Shown here: positions 2,885 to 46,971 of the stretch, in pieces
Layout: each line of letters starts with the position of its first letter
Position numbering within the stretch: the stretch's first letter is position 1
DNA from: Neolewinella agarilytica
GTDB lineage: Bacteria; Bacteroidota; Bacteroidia; Chitinophagales; Saprospiraceae
Length of the DNA: 64,000 bases
Reading direction: 5' to 3'
NCBI RefSeq assembly: GCF_900110645.1
Contig: NZ_FOFB01000028.1
Coordinates: 1-64,000, forward strand
Program-made: the position numbers and the translations under genes
Notes under the pieces: generated by a model
What the model was told of the DNA's origin: nothing
Database searches by the model: none
The model's input: the letters and a program-made list of their open reading frames with translations, nothing else

Positions 2885-3745
2885 ATGAACGAAGTCAAAA
2901 CTCCCCCTACCCTGCCCAGTAGTTTCTTCCAGACCGCCCAAAGCCGCGAAGCACTGGATGTGCCCATCACCGAAGACCGGCTCCACGTTCGCCGCTATGG
3001 CAATGGCGGAGCGATTATGTTGTCCGTCCACGGTTTCGGGCGCAACGGCCGCCGCATGGAGCGACTGGCATTGGCACTGGGCCGGCAGTTCACCACTTTT
3101 GCGCCAGATTTACCCTACCACGGCAAGTCCGAGTGGGTAAAAGAATCTTATACCCCGGCAGATCTTGCCGCAGTATTCAATGCCTTACTCAAGGACTATT
3201 CTGACCGCCCGGTCTTCCTGCTGGGCCACAGCCTTGGCGGGCGGGTGTTGAGCGCAACCCTCCCGCTGCTGGATCACCCCGACATACGAGACCTGGCGCT
3301 CGTAGCGCCAGATGGAGCCGGAGGCCGCTACACCAACTGGATTGACACTTTGCCAACGTCCCTGGTCCGCCCGCTGGCTAAATTCAGTGAGCGCCCCCGC
3401 TATCTGCTCAAGCTGAGCAACTGGCTGCGGCGCAGAGGCGTCATCAATCGCTACTCCGCAGAATACCTGAACCACAACCTGAAAGATGGCACCTTTCGTC
3501 GGCGTCTGGCCGGCAGTCTTCGCAGTGTTTTACGGTTTCCGCCTCAACCCGACAAACTTGAGCAAACGCTCCACCAGCGCAGCATTTCAGCTACCGTTTT
3601 TGCTGGTGACCGGGACCCCCTGCTACACCACGAAAGACTAGAAGCTATTTATGGTCCCCTGCCCTCCGTAAAAGTAGTTCCCTACACCGGCAGCCACTGG
3701 CTGCCCGAGCAATTGCTGTATGACTACTACCTTAGCAGGATATAA
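2885..3745 (+). CDS. Alpha/beta hydrolase
   Basis: A 286-residue alpha/beta-hydrolase-fold enzyme, probably an esterase or lipase-like hydrolase in the cytoplasm. The nucleophile elbow GHSLGG puts Ser at about residue 116, the oxyanion HGFGRN segment is near 49-54, AGDRDP supplies the acid, and GSHW near the C terminus supplies the catalytic His. The frame is open from 2768, but the first 39 codons (basic, hydrophobic mix) lack a signal-peptide or domain pattern, so I chose the ATG at 2885. A MarR regulator follows 30 bases downstream on the same strand, suggesting co-transcription. Substrate unknown. Confidence 0.82.
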   Translation: MNEVKTPPTLPSSFFQTAQSREALDVPITEDRLHVRRYGNGGAIMLSVHGFGRNGRRMERLALALGRQFTTFAPDLPYHGKSEWVKESYTPADLAAVFNALLKDYSDRPVFLLGHSLGGRVLSATLPLLDHPDIRDLALVAPDGAGGRYTNWIDTLPTSLVRPLAKFSERPRYLLKLSNWLRRRGVINRYSAEYLNHNLKDGTFRRRLAGSLRSVLRFPPQPDKLEQTLHQRSISATVFAGDRDPLLHHERLEAIYGPLPSVKVVPYTGSHWLPEQLLYDYYLSRI

Positions 3746-4374: not shown

Positions 4375-5634
4375 ATGCTCCTCCGCCAATTCATCATTAC
4401 TGACCCCGATGGCCCGCATAATGGCCAGACCCTCGACCTTCGCCTTGAAGACGGCCTGATTACCGAAATGGCCGAAAGCCTGACGGCTTCAGCCAATGAA
4501 CCCGTCATGGAAGGTAAGGGTGCCCGCCTGTCGGCGGGCTTTGTTGACCTGGGTGCCTACCTGGGTGACCCCGGCCACGAAGAACGGGAAGACATTGCCA
4601 GCCTGCGGGCGGCAGCTGCTGCCGGCGGCTATACCGCCGTGGCCACGCTACCGAATACGGAGCCCGTTCGGCAGTCCGTCGCCGATGTCGCTTACCTGCT
4701 GCGCCAGAACGGAGATCACCCCGTTGATCTTCTTCCGCTGGCGGCGCTAAGCCGTAATCTGGAAGGCAAAGATCTCACCGAAATGCTGGAGCTGGCCCAC
4801 GCTGGCGCGACTGTTTTTACTGACGGTCCGAAAAGAAGAGTCAGCGGTAGCTTGCTGAAGCGAAGCCTTGAATACGCCCAGGCCGGTAATTGCCGGGTAA
4901 TGATTTCCCCCTACGACGAAGCTCTGGTGCCCGAAGGGCAAATGCACGAAGGCACCATCAGTACCCGACTGGGGCTGCGCGGCATCCCCGTGATGAGTGA
5001 GTCCATTCCGCTGAAACGGGCCATGGAGCTCTTGAAATACACAGAGGGCAAGCTGATCATTCACCTACTCTCCTCCGCTTCCGGTGTTCGGGAAGTTCGG
5101 GCGGCAAAAGCCGCGGGGCTTAACGTACTTGCCACCGTCAGCGCGCATCACCTGCAGTTTACGGATGAAGAACTGGCGACTTTCGACTCCAGCTTCAAAA
5201 TGTTGCCCCCCCTGCGGGAAGAGGAAGACCGGCAGGCCCTCATCGAAGGCCTGAAGGATGGAACCATTGACGCCATTGTGAGTAACCACGTTGCCCGCCA
5301 CGGCGAAGAGAAAGATCTCGAGTTCTTCTACGCTGACTTTGGTGCACTGGGCTTACAGACGGCTTTCCGACAGTGTTTACAAAGCCTGGAAACATCACTT
5401 TCCATTGAAGACATCGTTGCTAAATTCACGAGCGGTCCTCGTCTGCTTCTCGGAGAATCCCCCTTGCACCTGCGCCCCGGCGCCCCGGCCTGCCTTACTC
5501 TCTTCACGACCGAGGGCAGCAGCACCTTCTCCGCCGCCGACCTCAAGGGAAAAACGGTGAACAGTCCATTGATCGGGAAAACACTTCCCGGAAAAATTAT
5601 CGGCGTGGTGAATAACGGAAAGTTGGTTGAGTAA
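4375..5634 (+). CDS. Dihydroorotase-like protein lacking the metal motif (PyrC' type)
   Basis: A 419-residue amidohydrolase-fold protein aligned with type I dihydroorotase (pyrimidine synthesis): GYTAVATLPNTEPV, KMLPPLREEEDRQALIEGL, DGTIDAIVSNH and the FGALGLQTAF segment are all family landmarks. The zinc-binding DxHxH motif, expected after GFVD, reads DLGAY here, and the usual TDHAPH reads SNHVARH. It therefore resembles the catalytically dead PyrC' proteins that act as structural partners of aspartate transcarbamoylase, though some Bacteroidota homologues are still annotated as dihydroorotase. pyrB is not in the window. A TATATTTG box lies just before the start. The GT2 gene follows 53 bases later. 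Confidence 0.8.
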   Translation: MLLRQFIITDPDGPHNGQTLDLRLEDGLITEMAESLTASANEPVMEGKGARLSAGFVDLGAYLGDPGHEEREDIASLRAAAAAGGYTAVATLPNTEPVRQSVADVAYLLRQNGDHPVDLLPLAALSRNLEGKDLTEMLELAHAGATVFTDGPKRRVSGSLLKRSLEYAQAGNCRVMISPYDEALVPEGQMHEGTISTRLGLRGIPVMSESIPLKRAMELLKYTEGKLIIHLLSSASGVREVRAAKAAGLNVLATVSAHHLQFTDEELATFDSSFKMLPPLREEEDRQALIEGLKDGTIDAIVSNHVARHGEEKDLEFFYADFGALGLQTAFRQCLQSLETSLSIEDIVAKFTSGPRLLLGESPLHLRPGAPACLTLFTTEGSSTFSAADLKGKTVNSPLIGKTLPGKIIGVVNNGKLVE

Positions 5635-5687
5635 ACCGGCCCCCGTAACCTGCTTCCTCCAACGAGAAAGTTGCTAACTTCGCCCTT

Positions 5688-6641
5688 ATGGACATCAGCG
5701 TCGTCGTACCCCTCTTCAACGAAGAAGAAAGTCTGCCCGAACTCACTGCCTGGATTGACCGGGTGATGCAAGCCAACAACTTCAGCTATGAAGTCTGGCT
5801 CATTGATGATGGCAGTACCGATAACAGCTGGAAAGTCATCACAGAACTGAGGGCTAAGAATGCCAACCTGAAGGCCGTCAAGTTCCAACGCAACTACGGT
5901 AAAAGCCCCGCTCTTTTCGTGGGTTTTAAACGGGTCTCCGGCGAAGTCGTCATCACGATGGACGCTGATCTGCAGGATAGCCCGGACGAGATACCCGAGC
6001 TCTACCGCATGATAAAAGAAGATGGTTTTGACCTGGTTTCCGGTTGGAAACAAAAACGGCATGACCCCATTGGCAAAACCCTGCCGTCCAAGTTTTTCAA
6101 CGCCGTTACCCGTAAGGTGAGCGGTATTCATTTGCACGACTTTAACTGCGGGCTGAAATCTTACCGGCTTAACGTTGTCAAGTCCATCGAAGTCTACGGA
6201 GATATGCACCGTCACATGCCACTACTGGCTAAATGGGCCGGTTTCAAAAACATCGGAGAGAAGGTCGTTGAGCACCACGCCCGGAAGTATGGATACTCTA
6301 AATTTGGCCTTTCCCGGCTGATCACCGGCTTCCTCGACCTGATGTCACTCATGTTCGTAGGTAAGTTTGGCAAACGCCCCATGCACCTCTTCGGCACGCT
6401 GGGTACCATCGTTTTCCTCGTCGGTTTTTTCAGCATTCTGTACATCGGTGGCACCAAGTTGTACGCCCTGGCCAATCACATGCCCAAACAATTGGTGACG
6501 GAGAACCCCTGGTTCTACATCAGCCTGACCAGCATGGTGCTTGGCACCATTCTCTTTAACACCGGCTTTCTGGCCGAACTGGTGGCCAGATCAAGTGCCG
6601 ACCGGAATAGTTATTTGATTGAGACGGTGCTGGAGGGGTAG
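5688..6641 (+). CDS. Membrane-anchored family 2 glycosyltransferase (GtrB/DPM1-like)
   Basis: A 317-residue polyprenyl-phosphate glycosyltransferase type. The N-terminal GT-A domain shows VVPLFNEEESLPEL, the LIDDGSTDNSW nucleotide-binding motif, and TMDADLQDSPDEIPEL, which contains the DxD-like metal site. Two C-terminal transmembrane helices (about residues 235-260 and 278-303) anchor it in the inner membrane. Such enzymes transfer a sugar from a nucleotide donor to undecaprenyl phosphate for lipid- or surface-glycan modification. A -7-like TAACTTCG is at 5675-5682. Degenerate heptamer repeats begin a few bases after the stop codon. Confidence 0.9.
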   Translation: MDISVVVPLFNEEESLPELTAWIDRVMQANNFSYEVWLIDDGSTDNSWKVITELRAKNANLKAVKFQRNYGKSPALFVGFKRVSGEVVITMDADLQDSPDEIPELYRMIKEDGFDLVSGWKQKRHDPIGKTLPSKFFNAVTRKVSGIHLHDFNCGLKSYRLNVVKSIEVYGDMHRHMPLLAKWAGFKNIGEKVVEHHARKYGYSKFGLSRLITGFLDLMSLMFVGKFGKRPMHLFGTLGTIVFLVGFFSILYIGGTKLYALANHMPKQLVTENPWFYISLTSMVLGTILFNTGFLAELVARSSADRNSYLIETVLEG

Positions 6642-40908: not shown

Positions 40909-41904
40909 ATGACAAGTAATACCCCCACTTCTACTCCCCTTCGCTGGGGCATCATCGGTTGCGGAGACGTTACGGAAATAAAAAGCGGCCCCGCCTACCA
41001 GCAGACAGAAGGCTTTACGCTAAGTGCAGTCATGCGACGGGATGCCGAGAAAGTAAAGGACTACGCTGCACGCCATGGCGTAGAGAAATACTATACGGAC
41101 GCCGATGCGCTCATTAACGACCCCGACGTTGACGCCATCTATATCGCTACCCCGCCCGACACCCACTGCTTGTATGCCGTAAAAGTAGCCGCCGCCGGAA
41201 AAGCCTGCTGTGTGGAAAAACCCCTGGCTCCAAGCTATGCGGACAGCCTCGCCATTTACGAAGCTTTTGCTGAGCGGAACCTTCCCCTGTTTTCCGCCTA
41301 TTACCGGCGCTCCCTCCCCCGTTTCACTCAGGTAAAAACCTGGCTGGACGATCAGCAAATCGGTGACCTGCGCCATATCAACTGGCAGCTGAGTAAACCA
41401 CCCAGCGCTCAGGACCTGTCCGGGGCTGACAACTGGCGAACCGACCCGGCAGTAGCTCCGGGTGGCTATTTCGATGATCTGGCCAGTCACGGGCTTGATC
41501 TGTTTACCTTTTTCTTAGGCGACATGACGGAGGTGCACGGCATCAGCCTGAACCAACAGGGGCTGTACGGCGCAAAAGACGCTTTCTCCGCCTGCTGGCT
41601 CCACGACGATAAAATAACCGGTACGGGACACTGGAATTTTGGCAGCAGCCGATCAGAAGACCGCGTTGAAATTGTCGGCAGCAAGGGAAGCATCCAGTTT
41701 GCGATTTTCGAGGAGCAGCCTGTTGTTCTGATTCAGGGTGACAAACGGCAGGAGAAATTTATTGACCACCCTTATCACGTTCAGCTACCTCACGTAGAGA
41801 ATATGCAGCGGCAACTCCTGAGCGGTGACTACTTTCACCCCTCCACGGGCAAGACTGCCCTTCACACCAGTTGGATAATGGACAGGATATTGGGCAACAT
41901 CTAA
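40909..41904 (+). CDS. Gfo/Idh/MocA-family oxidoreductase (cytoplasmic)
   Basis: 331 residues. The Rossmann domain opens RWGIIGCGDVTEIKSGPAYQQ (GxGxx(G/A/V)), with YIATPPDTHCLYAVKVAAAGKACCVEKPLAPS carrying the catalytic-site EKP lysine, followed by the alpha/beta substrate domain with the DLASHGLDLFTFFLGD segment that includes the conserved His. It oxidises or reduces a sugar, inositol or related polyol with NAD(P). The next gene encodes a second, exported member of the same family 41 bases downstream, suggesting a two-step sugar-modification unit. The recurring 18-mer lies just upstream (40867-40884). Confidence 0.9.
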   Translation: MTSNTPTSTPLRWGIIGCGDVTEIKSGPAYQQTEGFTLSAVMRRDAEKVKDYAARHGVEKYYTDADALINDPDVDAIYIATPPDTHCLYAVKVAAAGKACCVEKPLAPSYADSLAIYEAFAERNLPLFSAYYRRSLPRFTQVKTWLDDQQIGDLRHINWQLSKPPSAQDLSGADNWRTDPAVAPGGYFDDLASHGLDLFTFFLGDMTEVHGISLNQQGLYGAKDAFSACWLHDDKITGTGHWNFGSSRSEDRVEIVGSKGSIQFAIFEEQPVVLIQGDKRQEKFIDHPYHVQLPHVENMQRQLLSGDYFHPSTGKTALHTSWIMDRILGNI

Positions 41905-41945
41905 GTCTTGTTGGTTACTTTGGCTGTCCAAACCAACGTCGAGCC

Positions 41946-43310
41946 ATGTCCACCAGAAGAAAATTCCTCCGTCGCCTCCCCGCCCTGCTGGCCGCTCCGG
42001 TGTTAAGCTCACAGGTAGCGGGTGCCACCCTGACGTTCCCGGATTTCGGCTTCGCCGCCAATGACCAGATCAACCTCGCCTGCGTCGGGCTCGGCATTCA
42101 GGGCTTCAACAACGTAAATGCCGCGCTGAAAAACCCGGGTATAAAAATGGTAGCGGCCTGTGACCTCTACACCGGTCGCCTGGAGCGGGCAAAGGAAGTG
42201 TACGGCAAGGAGCTGTACGTTACGCGAGACTATCGCGAGCTGCTCCTCCGCGAAGACATCGACGCCGTCATCGTCGCCACACCAGATCATTGGCACGATA
42301 CCATAACGATTGCAGCATTGGATGCGGGCAAACATGTTTATTGCGAGAAACCGCTGGTGCAAAGTCTGGATGAAGGCAGGGCAATTCTGGAAGCCGAAAA
42401 GCGAAACCCGGGCGTACTCATCGTCGGCAGCCAGCGGGTGAGTTCCATTTTGCTCGATAAAGCCCGCGACATCTACCGCAGCGGAGAGCTCGGTCAGCTC
42501 GTGATGATCGAGACCTACAACGATCGCTTCAGCGCCCTCGGCGCCTGGCAGTATTCCATTCCGCGGGATGCTTCGCCGGAAACCGTTGACTGGGACACCT
42601 TCCTCAAAGACACTGGTGACCTCCCCTTCGACGCAACAAGGTTCTTCCGCTGGCGAAATTACCAGGATTACGGCACCGGCGTGGGAGGAGACCTCTTCGT
42701 TCACCTCTTCTCCGGAGTGCACCGGATGTTAGACTCCGTGGGCCCCAACCGCGTCTTCGCCACTGGCGGCCTCCGCTATTGGGAAGATGGCCGCGACGTG
42801 CCCGACGTCTTCCTCGCCAACTGCGACTACGCCGAGCAGCCCGGCCACCCGGCATTCAATATGCAACTTCGGGTGAACTTCGTCGCGGGCGGCGGTGGCG
42901 GTAGCCAAACCCGCCTGATTGGCACCGAAGGGAGTCTGGAACTGGGCTACAACTCCCTCACCCTGCGGAGGAACCAACTCCCTGCCGCCCCCGGTTACGG
43001 GGGCTGGGACAGCTTCAACACCTTCCCGGAAAGCACCCGCGCTGACTTCGAAAAATGGTATAAAGCCACCTACCCTCCCGCGCCACCGGAGGTCGTTGGC
43101 CCCAATGAGTGGACCTATCGCACACCTGAAGGTTACTCCGACCATGTCCACCACTTTAACAACTGGTTTACCGCCATCCGTACCGGCGGCAAAGTAGTAG
43201 AAGATGGTGCCTTTGGCTTCCGGGCGGCGGCGCCGTCGCTACTCGCCAATGAGAGCTATTTCGGGAAGAAAGTGATGGGGTGGGATCCGGTGGGGATGCG
43301 GGTGGTGTGA
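41946..43310 (+). CDS. Gfo/Idh/MocA-family oxidoreductase, Tat-exported
   Basis: 454 residues from the ATG at 41946. STRRKFLRRLPALLAAPVLSSQVAGA is a twin-arginine signal, so the protein is folded with its cofactor and exported. The Rossmann part reads LACVGLGIQGFNNVNAAL, and HVYCEKPLVQSLDEGRAI has the EKP motif. HHFNNWFTAIRTG near the C terminus is typical of secreted members that act on surface glycans in Bacteroidota. The frame runs back to 41871, overlapping the previous gene, but only the 41946 start gives the Tat motif at the N terminus. Substrate unknown. Confidence 0.9.
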   Translation: MSTRRKFLRRLPALLAAPVLSSQVAGATLTFPDFGFAANDQINLACVGLGIQGFNNVNAALKNPGIKMVAACDLYTGRLERAKEVYGKELYVTRDYRELLLREDIDAVIVATPDHWHDTITIAALDAGKHVYCEKPLVQSLDEGRAILEAEKRNPGVLIVGSQRVSSILLDKARDIYRSGELGQLVMIETYNDRFSALGAWQYSIPRDASPETVDWDTFLKDTGDLPFDATRFFRWRNYQDYGTGVGGDLFVHLFSGVHRMLDSVGPNRVFATGGLRYWEDGRDVPDVFLANCDYAEQPGHPAFNMQLRVNFVAGGGGGSQTRLIGTEGSLELGYNSLTLRRNQLPAAPGYGGWDSFNTFPESTRADFEKWYKATYPPAPPEVVGPNEWTYRTPEGYSDHVHHFNNWFTAIRTGGKVVEDGAFGFRAAAPSLLANESYFGKKVMGWDPVGMRVV

Positions 43311-43325
43311 GAAATTTCTCTGAAG

Positions 43326-43391
43326 TCGTCGGACGAATCCTTTTTTCTGGAAGCCAGCAAAGCTGCTTTCTGGAAAAAGTTCGTCCGACGA
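43326..43391. repeat. 12-bp inverted repeat downstream of the Gfo/Idh/MocA gene
   Basis: tcgtcggacgaa (43326-43337) pairs perfectly with ttcgtccgacga (43380-43391) around a 42-base loop with a T-run. It starts 16 bases after the stop codon and may end transcription. Confidence 0.6.
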
Positions 43392-43474
43392 TTTGGGTTA
43401 CATCTTGAATGGTAAATCCTGAACCACCCGCGGCGAACGGGTGAAGCTCCGCAAGGCTCGGTGGATGGCAGGCT

Positions 43475-43502
43475 AAACCAATATCTCCTCCCGCCTGACC
43501 TT
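43475..43502. repeat. 28-bp direct repeat, left copy
   Basis: Identical over 28 bases to 44294-44321, which is the last coding stretch (KVRREEILV) plus part of the stop codon of the minus-strand 44292 gene. The two copies bracket the toxin-antitoxin pair, so this copy looks like a duplicated insertion end. Confidence 0.85.
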
Positions 43503-43566
43503 ATTTTCCTATCCCACCAGGCTGCTCAACAGATTCTTAATCTTGTTTCGTTCCTCCCCAAGAATC

Positions 43567-43980
43567 CTACTCCCTCAACTTCAAATACTGATCAGCGGTC
43601 AGCACCGGTATTTTGGAATGCTTAAAATCGGGAAGGTTTCTGGTGATGATAACGTCAGCCCCAATCTCTACTGCGGAGTAATACTGAAGTCCGTCTTCAA
43701 AATCTTTGAAGTCTGAATCGTTTAGGGCTAGCTGAACAATCTTACCGTTCAGGTCGGTGATGCTTACGATTAGCTCTAAATCTCGCAAGACTTTAATCGT
43801 CTTTTCTTTGCCTAACAACTTACGGAGTATGTAATTCATATTAGCAAATGAAAGAGAGGATACATACAGATCAACTTTCTTATTGTCGCCCAAAGTGAAG
43901 AGTGCAGCGGCAGAAGCGTATTCTGGTCTTTTAGCGAGTAAGTCTAATATGATGTTAGTATCTATAAATAGCTTCTTCAT
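43567..43980 (-). CDS. PIN-domain toxin (VapC-like ribonuclease)
   Basis: 137 residues, the normal PIN length. The metal-binding acids are visible: DTN near residue 6-8 (FIDTNIILDLLAKRPEY), an Asp in FEDGLQYYSAVEIGADVIITRN, and the final D in LPDF. PIN toxins cleave tRNA or rRNA and stop growth. Its ATG overlaps the stop codon of the antitoxin gene by 4 bases (ATGA), so the two are translated together, the antitoxin first. The pair is AT-rich compared with flanking genes and lies between 28-bp direct repeats. Confidence 0.88.
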   Translation of the reverse strand: MKKLFIDTNIILDLLAKRPEYASAAALFTLGDNKKVDLYVSSLSFANMNYILRKLLGKEKTIKVLRDLELIVSITDLNGKIVQLALNDSDFKDFEDGLQYYSAVEIGADVIITRNLPDFKHSKIPVLTADQYLKLRE

Positions 43981-44234
43981 TTGTACTTCTCCGTTAGGTA
44001 GTCCGCGTAATCGGATTTGTAGTCGATTTTCGTATCATCGTCTAAGTCAATTACTCCGACCAGCCGGCTCACTAAGGGCGAAATTACGAGTTCTCCTTCC
44101 TCTCCTTCTGTGATAGTTAGTGTGGCTAAATAATTCTCAATCATGCGAGAGAGACTGACACCATGATCCCTGGCATAACTTTTTGCCTTTTCGACCACGA
44201 GTGCATTCAGACTTAAGGTGAGTTTCTTATCCAT
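43977..44234 (-). CDS. Antitoxin, DUF6364 type
   Basis: 85 residues, matching DUF6364 antitoxins paired with PIN toxins. The N terminus MDKKLTLSLNALVVEKAKSYARDHGVSLSRMIENYL is a ribbon-helix-helix-like DNA-binding segment; the acidic C terminus (VIDLDDDTKIDYKSDYADYLTEKYK) would wrap the toxin active site. First gene of the operon. A 9-bp inverted repeat upstream (44244-44276) is a likely autoregulatory operator. Confidence 0.85.
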   Translation of the reverse strand: MDKKLTLSLNALVVEKAKSYARDHGVSLSRMIENYLATLTITEGEEGELVISPLVSRLVGVIDLDDDTKIDYKSDYADYLTEKYK

Positions 44235-44243
44235 TTCATTGCC

Positions 44244-44276
44244 TTTACGTGTAAAAATACAAATTCAACACGTAAA
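44244..44276 (-). promoter_or_regulatory. Putative antitoxin operator (9-bp inverted repeat)
   Basis: tttacgtgt (44244-44252) and acacgtaaa (44268-44276) are perfect inverted arms 15 bases apart, beginning 10 bases upstream of the antitoxin ATG. This is the expected place for binding of a ribbon-helix-helix antitoxin dimer pair. Confidence 0.6.
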
Positions 44277-44291
44277 AGTTTCGCGCGCAGC

Positions 44292-45107
44292 TCAAACCAA
44301 TATCTCCTCCCGCCTGACCTTCAGCTCCTTGCCCGCATGGCTCTTCAGGACATTATCCCACAGATAGGTTAACGCCCCAACGGACTTCCCCTCCGCCGTC
44401 TCCACGGTAAAGAGCGGAAAGATTCGATGGTGGCTGTAGGCAAGGAAGACCATAGCGAGAATCTCCCCCTTATCGTCCTGGACCGCCTGGGTGCCGCCCC
44501 AGCCCCGGTGTAACACCTGGTACATGATGCGCTGCATGGCGTGGTATCGCCATTCGTTTTCGGCGGTCTTACCATTGACCTGTAGCCAGAGGTCCGCCAG
44601 ACGCTCCGGTTTGAAGCTACTGGCCGGACGCAGGCGGGCCATCTCCGCCCGCACGAGGCCTTCGTGGTAGCCGGGGGAAAAGTCTTCGATGATTTGCTCG
44701 TAAGGTCGGTTCAGCGTAAGGGCCGTCCCCGTAGCCGCCTCGACGGTAAAGCGATTACTCACCTTAGGCGCTGAAGCGGGTTCAACCGTCAGGTTTCCAC
44801 TGCGATATTCCTTCGGTATCGCGTCCCAGAAGGCCTGGACGCGCTTCGGGCTAAGCACATTTACGCTGTAGACGGCCAGGTCCGAGATCAGTCTCGGTTG
44901 TTCGAGCCGGGTTCTCCCCAGCCAGTTTTTGGTTTTTGGCAGGGGCATAACACTACTCCAGTTGTCTTCCACCAGAACGTCCCAATCGTCCGTTGTGGCG
45001 TTCAGAAACCAGTGATAGCCATAAATGTTGCCGTTGGTGGCGTAGTGGACGCAGCTGTCGTAAAGCTGCTTGTCAAACTCTTCCCGGGGTACAAGACGGA
45101 TATTCAT
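44292..45107 (-). CDS. Acyltransferase-like (GNAT/FemX-type) hypothetical protein
   Basis: 271 residues, no signal peptide. The layout (short N-terminal alpha/beta part with VLVEDNWSSVMPLPKTKNWLGRTRLEQPR, then YHEGLVRAEMARLRPASSFKPERLADLW, then ILAMVFLAYSHHRIFPLFTVETAEGKSVGALTYLWDNVLK) recalls double-GNAT proteins of the peptidoglycan-bridge FemABX type seen in Bacteroidota, but no motif proves it. Its last 28 coding bases are duplicated beyond the toxin-antitoxin pair. Confidence 0.65.
   Translation of the reverse strand: MNIRLVPREEFDKQLYDSCVHYATNGNIYGYHWFLNATTDDWDVLVEDNWSSVMPLPKTKNWLGRTRLEQPRLISDLAVYSVNVLSPKRVQAFWDAIPKEYRSGNLTVEPASAPKVSNRFTVEAATGTALTLNRPYEQIIEDFSPGYHEGLVRAEMARLRPASSFKPERLADLWLQVNGKTAENEWRYHAMQRIMYQVLHRGWGGTQAVQDDKGEILAMVFLAYSHHRIFPLFTVETAEGKSVGALTYLWDNVLKSHAGKELKVRREEILV
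44294..44321. repeat. 28-bp direct repeat, right copy
   Basis: Same 28 bases as 43475-43502. Here they encode the C terminus of the minus-strand 44292 gene, so the right copy is the functional original. Confidence 0.85.
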
Positions 45108-46403: not shown

Positions 46404-46619
46404 ATGCGTAAAATTCAGGAATTCAAAACCAACATTAATTGCGGCAGCTGTGTCCGCAGCGTCACGCCTTTTCTCGACGACCTGGAAGGCGTCACCATCT
46501 GGCGGGTAGACGTTGAGCAAGAAGACAAAGTACTTACCGTAGAAGGTAACGTACCCGCTTCCGCCATCATCAAGATGGTAGAAGAAGCTGGCTTTGATAT
46601 CGAGCCAGTGGCGGCGTAA
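46404..46619 (+). CDS. Heavy-metal-associated (HMA) domain protein
   Basis: 71 residues forming one HMA ferredoxin-like domain. The metal site reads NCGSC (Cys13 and Cys16; usual form is CxxC), and VTIWRVDVEQEDKVLTVEGNVPASAIIKMVEEAGFDIEPV completes the fold. It is a copper-chaperone-like protein of the CopZ type, cytoplasmic. No ATPase or regulator partner is adjacent. Its stop codon touches the first copy of an 88-bp direct repeat. Confidence 0.85.
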   Translation: MRKIQEFKTNINCGSCVRSVTPFLDDLEGVTIWRVDVEQEDKVLTVEGNVPASAIIKMVEEAGFDIEPVAA

Positions 46620-46706
46620 CGCCCTGTAGCGACAGCTTCAGCCGTCGTTCGGGCAAGGGAGCGCCAGCGACTTTGCCCGCGCAACAACTGCCAAGACAGG
46701 AAGCTA
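46619..46706. repeat. 88-bp direct repeat, first copy
   Basis: Near-identical to 46741-46828, with only a few substitutions. It begins at the HMA gene stop codon and contains gcttcagccgtcgttcggg and gcgccagcgac. Non-coding. Confidence 0.8.
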
Positions 46707-46971
46707 TCCGAACCATTGGCGGCTTAGGCACTTGGTCGAGACGCCCTGTAGCGACGGCTTCAGCCGTCGTTCGGGCAAGGGAGCGCCAGCGACTTTGACC
46801 GTGCAACAACTGCCAAGACAGGAAGCTACCCCGCTAAAACGCTCCGGGAGCCTTTACATTTGCTTCGCAGTACTTCGTGCTCGGCAGGCTTAGTAAACAC
46901 GGCCCCGTTCGCGATCGACGTACAGCGTCTCGACCAGAATTTCGGCCAAACCAATAGGCTTTAACAAAACC
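46620..46971. other. Intergenic region with two direct repeats
   Basis: Occupied mainly by the two 88-bp repeats. From 46829 to 46971 I see no gene or structured RNA; it may hold the promoter of the PLP enzyme. Confidence 0.5.
46741..46828. repeat. 88-bp direct repeat, second copy
   Basis: Second copy, offset 122 bases from the first, with only a few substitutions between the two copies. Confidence 0.8.

Follow-up and report, generated by a model that had tools for sequence, protein, structure and literature searches.

Duplicated gene ends around a predicted toxin-antitoxin module of Neolewinella agarilytica and around related modules of other Bacteroidota

Bare modules between direct repeats

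Few bacterial genes are as mobile as those of toxin-antitoxin (TA) modules, and the movement of their bare chromosomal copies is largely unexplained. DNA without a recombinase of its own can lie between two copies of a gene's 3' end, and such elements (CIMEs) form arrays.

CIMEs and the tandem accretion of integrative elements are the subject of a review (PMC5704250, excerpts). For restriction-modification systems, the excerpted papers describe insertion with a long target duplication, which provides a precedent (Nobusato et al. 2000, Gene 259:99, via PMC3874152, PMC3031569, PMC1643837). In the pdif (XerC/XerD) modules of Acinetobacter plasmids, bare TA modules lie between 28-bp repeats, according to excerpts of PMC7885321 and PMC12907356. 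No report of TA modules bracketed by gene ends, or of stacked gene ends, was found among the open-licence papers searched.

The bracketed operon and its surroundings

The locus described here lies in a 64,000-nucleotide stretch of N. agarilytica DNA (the window; the genome is labelled G000, other G and L numbers standing for compared genomes and loci). A 28-bp direct repeat, AAACCAATATCTCCTCCCGCCTGACCTT, brackets an operon of one PIN_3 and one DUF6364 reading frame, which overlap by four bases (Table 1). The initial annotation had pointed to this duplication and to the AT-rich operon inside it, and both were found as described: the two copies have no mismatch, the proximal one encodes the end of a 271-aa gene, and GC content between the repeats is 41.7% vs 53.6% in the whole window. 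The genome (6.22 Mb) contains no third copy of the 28-mer, and a search of 20 congeneric genomes, allowing up to three mismatches, found none at all. An exact 28-mer at such short spacing is far beyond chance. A dif/Xer site at the 28-mer was rejected, as it has no dif-like arms. No recombinase is encoded within the bracket or beside the module.

Table 1. Features of the bracketed locus (window coordinates)
Feature	Position	Strand	Details
Gfo/Idh/MocA oxidoreductase, convergent far-side neighbour	41871..43310	+	separate syntenic block
72-nt near-perfect hairpin, between MocA gene and stranded copy	43323..43394	.	MFE -44.2 kcal/mol, z -6.7
Decayed, stranded copy of the gene's 3' end	43473..43562	-	28-mer 43475-43502, TAG stop 43473-43475, diverged part 43503-43562
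PIN_3 toxin, VapC-like (predicted)	43567..43980	-	PF13470, E 4.5e-17
DUF6364 antitoxin (predicted)	43977..44234	-	PF19891, E 3.7e-26; last 4 bases overlap toxin start
Inverted repeat TTTACGTGT...ACACGTAAA, upstream of antitoxin	44244..44276	.	arms 44244-44252 and 44268-44276; read from sequence
Conserved 271-aa gene with duplicated 3' end, intact copy	44292..45107	-	orthologues in 18 congeners
28-mer, proximal copy	44294..44321	-	exact repeat; the gene's last codons, KVRREEILV

Read on the minus strand, the left copy gives, in one frame, NLLSSLVG, a stop, EN, KVRREEILV and TAG, while the gene itself ends in TGA. A short minus-strand frame, ILGEERNKIKNLLSSLVG followed by a stop, is present and shares its frame with the stranded KVRREEILV and its stop. 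The whole string (NLLSSLVG, stop, ENKVRREEILV) resembles NVLKSHAGKELKVRREEILV of the same gene. Of the 60 bases that precede the left 28-mer, 30 match the gene in register and without gaps (P ~3e-5: 4 of 127,881 windows of the 64-kb stretch were as good, three lengths having been tried). Since the frame is shared and the upstream part resembles the same gene, the duplication is probably ~88 nt long, 28 nt of these being perfect. The initial annotation had described the ~60 bases beside the PIN gene as a short minus-strand tail, which they do contain, and as a possible remnant of another gene; they are best read as the end of the same gene. None of the congeneric orthologues matches this extension better than the gene itself and its G009 counterpart (30/60 each), and its changes are spread over the codon positions as 11/9/10, with no third-position excess. 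Membership of the left copy in a second complete gene was rejected because the match extends over only ~90 nt; what remains at the left is a stranded gene end.

The PIN_3 protein has all of the invariant residues D7, D93, E95, D96, T113-R114-N115 and D118, as judged by an alignment of 10 relatives. As the active-site residues are intact, the module, predicted from its families, looks functional. A sequence search at E 0.01 found no solved structure homologous to the PIN protein, and open-licence papers yielded no mention of DUF6364. The inverted repeat upstream of the antitoxin gene is a probable autoregulatory operator, and ACGT-centred repeats of a similar kind precede related modules. The conserved acidic PIN residues, the toxin encoded behind a small antitoxin gene in an overlapping operon and the palindromic operator are all shared with type II TA systems of the VapBC kind.

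The hairpin on the far side is a bystander, probably a bidirectional terminator or a dispersed palindromic repeat; the genome has a second copy of it, 83% identical, at C27:225311-225381. Farther along the window, two intergenic 91-nt direct repeats (46619-46831) are 96% identical and lie 122 nt apart.

The 271-aa gene matched no Pfam or NCBIfam family. Its orthologues in 18 congeners are 55-96% identical, and one more congener has a split match. Pyruvate kinase is the next gene in 11 of the 18 congeneric loci and is not adjacent in G000 or in its sister G009. The MocA block is found elsewhere in G004, G014 and G018, and the junction between it and the gene is private to G000 among the 20 congeners compared. 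G009, the closest relative (gene 96% identical; a draft genome, 55% complete, several other relatives being drafts as well), has no TA module, and its DNA differs directly beyond the gene's stop codon, with other AT-rich reading frames, so it was rejected as an empty site. One of these frames encodes a different 119-aa protein and comes with an operator-like palindrome (L004:2317-3160). The 3' end of the 271-aa gene may be an insertion hot spot.

An empty site with a single 28-mer, which the initial annotation expected in TA-free relatives, was not found among the 20 congeners, either by the 28-mer (up to three mismatches) or by conservation of the junction. Because the junction is private to G000, no empty site can be demonstrated and a rearrangement is possible. 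The junction looks like a rearrangement breakpoint, and rearrangement may have accompanied the insertion. A further-reaching proposal is that an inversion or translocation joined the MocA and gene blocks, so that the duplicated 28-mer and the TA pair mark a breakpoint and no cassette was inserted. It agrees with the unique pairing of neighbours, with the missing pyruvate kinase in G000 and G009 and with synteny that breaks at the gene's stop codon and, on the other side, beyond MocA. We consider it improbable: rearrangement by itself does not place a TA pair between direct repeats, and the same scar surrounds other modules.

Gene ends around related modules

We collected 179 PIN/DUF6364 loci, 167 of them with usable flanks, and looked for direct repeats with one copy on either side of the module and no more than 1 kb away, windows of the same loci serving as controls. 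Direct repeats bracket 14/167 modules vs 10/836 control windows (P 3e-6). Under a strict gene-end rule, which demands that one copy lie at a long ORF's end and that the second fall in no long ORF, the counts are 5/167 and 0/1642, one of the five being a false positive (L241, a palindrome). With G000 and L241 left out, 3/165 modules vs 0/1642 controls remain (P 7e-4, or 0.005 with the controls halved, as the windows overlap by half). A hemH case escaped the rule because the intact gene is too far from the DUF6364 module. Thus the search for other modules bounded by duplicated gene ends, suggested by the initial annotation, did reveal the scar at other genes around related modules. Clean cases besides G000 are only four among the 167 modules: the 3' ends of ribBA and of a TPR gene, the 5' end of a Gate-family gene, and hemH in a metagenome-assembled genome (MAG).

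Loci L098, L099, L101, L114, L129, L138, L241, L271 and L331 were rejected as gene-end cases or are unclear, their repeats being dispersed or intergenic. Such repeats (L099 and L271 apart) lend something to the view that the TA pair lies by coincidence between copies of a short dispersed or conserved repeat. For G000 this is very improbable, since the 28-mer has just its two genomic copies and is the in-frame coding end of the adjacent gene.

Three other PIN/DUF6364 modules (L180, G006 C2:1906478; L164, G017 C1:696121; L173, G020 C34:217069) have a dif-like XerC/XerD site, CATAATTTATATTATGTTAAGT, at a distance of 33-87 nt; most genomes of the genus carry this site in single copy. Xer-mediated entry is possible for these three. 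The dif-like sites of G000 are on other contigs than the window.

The repeated sequence differs at every locus, and so does its length: 28 nt in G000, ~87 at the Gate-family gene, ~160 at ribBA, 244 at the TPR gene and 37-122 at hemH. Together with the case at a 5' end, this counts against a fixed attachment site. It bears on the proposal that the 28-mers are attL and attR of a CIME-like integrative element, mobilised in trans or deleted down to the TA pair, whose integrase recognised the gene's 3' end and which supplied a replacement end. Such an origin would suit the position at gene 3' ends, the perfect cores inside looser similarity, a tandem array that resembles accretion, and replacement ends diverging as coding sequence, as at hemH. 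It is nevertheless unlikely, as the target gene, core and repeat length change from locus to locus, a 5' end is affected in one case, and the clean-case sites have neither an integrase or its remnant nor a shared core sequence. The hemH modules are moreover all bare, with two toxin stop codons 8 nt from hemH copies.

Comparison of the two ends by codon position separates the clean cases. The ribBA remnant in G002 (L036; 161 nt, 78% identity, near-perfect core of ~37 nt) differs from the gene at all codon positions (13/5/14). Sister species side with the gene at 23/32 sites and with the remnant at 5-6, which suggests that the remnant decayed from a copy of the resident gene. The Gate-family repeat in G165 (L301; 87 nt, 91%) has no third-position bias. 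In this locus (L301:622-3539) one Gate-family gene is flanked by two PIN/DUF6364 modules, the first of which is bracketed by the duplicated 5' end.

At the TPR gene of G226 (L250), which encodes a 670-aa protein, the repeat covers 244 nt at 75% and reaches the gene end. The changes are 11/9/38 by codon position (P 0.012 even if half are expected at third positions, an expectation that allows for selection on the live gene and none on the spare). The remnant is 74.9% identical to its own gene and 74.0% to that of the sister species, and gene end and remnant are equally far from the latter (24 vs 24 sites).

The hemH case (L123, a Bacteroidia MAG; L123:2235-6352) is an array in which five hemH 3' ends alternate with four TA modules: UPF0175/DUF3368, DUF6364/PIN_3, an unnamed partner with PIN_3, and a RelB-like one, the last in the array, which may be without a toxin. 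The stranded ends are at 2235-2350, 3554-3668, 4422-4458 and 5517-5638, and the real end is at 6209. Pooled over the four stranded copies, the changes are 8/8/42 (P 4e-4 with the same expectation of one half). Orthologues did not identify the native hemH end, the best being only 63% identical. Third codon positions carry most of the differences at hemH and at the TPR gene, so the ends there diverged as functional genes and were already distinct functional alleles when brought together. This points to the arrival of a foreign end allele together with the module.

Routes of entry and comparison with described systems

The evidence is mixed: some cases resemble a local duplication and others the entry of a module with a foreign end, while G000 does not discriminate between the two. 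We give a probability of about one half to the reading that the VapBC-like PIN_3/DUF6364 module reached its site, a conserved gene's 3' end, through additive integration that was anchored by homology and used no recombinase. This reading builds on the intact module between duplicated ends, on the enrichment of brackets around this TA family and on the coding-type divergence at hemH and the TPR gene. Incoming DNA would hold the TA operon together with a version of that gene end. It would be joined on one side by recombination within the gene end, and the other side would be sealed beside the resident end, so that DNA is added and none removed. One end would then complete the gene, and the second, stranded beyond the TA module, would decay. 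The gene would survive as it still has a whole end, and the module through addiction, its loss harming the cell. For G000 we infer this order of events by analogy; the donor's identity is inferred as well. Homology-anchored additive integration would cover both types of case if donors range from near to distant. The perfect 28-mer beside a stretch of 50% identity is odd for simple decay and speaks against this course of events. Against it also stand the missing empty site for G000, the even codon-position spread of the G000 extension, the ribBA remnant and the small number of clean cases.

The initial annotation had proposed that a cassette was inserted with a replacement end. Much of this agrees with what was found: the TA pair is exactly at the gene's 3' end with a second end beyond it, no recombinase adjoins, the scar recurs, and two loci show coding divergence. 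A fixed attachment site is disfavoured by the varying lengths and sequences.

A plain long target duplication is a less probable alternative. The module would have been inserted at a staggered or re-replicated break by end joining or template switching, with 28-240 bp of the resident end duplicated and the spare copy decaying. G000, ribBA and L301 fit this at least as well, being compatible with copies identical at insertion: the ribBA remnant most resembles its own gene and has changes at all codon positions, and the L301 end lacks third-position bias. Variable repeat lengths and the restriction-modification precedent (PMC3874152, excerpts) favour it too. At hemH and at the TPR gene, identical copies are contradicted by the coding-type divergence of the ends; moreover, the TPR remnant and a sister species are equally distant from the resident TPR gene. 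In G000 the abutment of 28 perfect bases on 60 bases at 50% is a further difficulty.

The scar around a few related pairs in other Bacteroidota suggests that two-gene addiction units, though lacking their own recombinase, can enter chromosomes. Stranded gene ends would be a footprint of TA entry, searchable and roughly datable across genomes. If the ends truly come from other species, TA modules would spread by ordinary homologous DNA uptake and addiction, without transposition machinery. We can only speculate that TA pairs move among related bacteria with no recombinase and together with the end of the neighbouring housekeeping gene, and that on arrival they replace that end and strand the old one. 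Successive arrivals would stack as an ordered record (hemH, L123), like a cassette array with the gene as recombination site.

Among the described systems, pdif modules share with G000 a bare TA pair between 28-bp repeats, as far as the excerpted descriptions go, but the G000 repeat is not dif-like. CIMEs are similar as recombinase-free DNA between gene 3' ends that forms arrays. They differ from the present cases, which have no shared att core (the core differs at every locus), no recombinase in the bracket, no related integrase element seen in a non-exhaustive survey of these genes, variable repeat lengths and a TA operon as the only cargo. The long target duplications of restriction-modification systems, as excerpted, likewise involve a bare addiction module, no recombinase and a direct repeat of the target of variable length (order of 100 bp). 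Here too a direct repeat of the target, tens to hundreds of base pairs long, closely flanks the module. The differences are that our modules are type II TA pairs of Bacteroidota, that the repeat is a gene end, that two loci have different coding alleles and that the hemH modules are stacked. Overall, the scar of the G000 type appears to be a version, for TA modules, of insertion with long target duplication.
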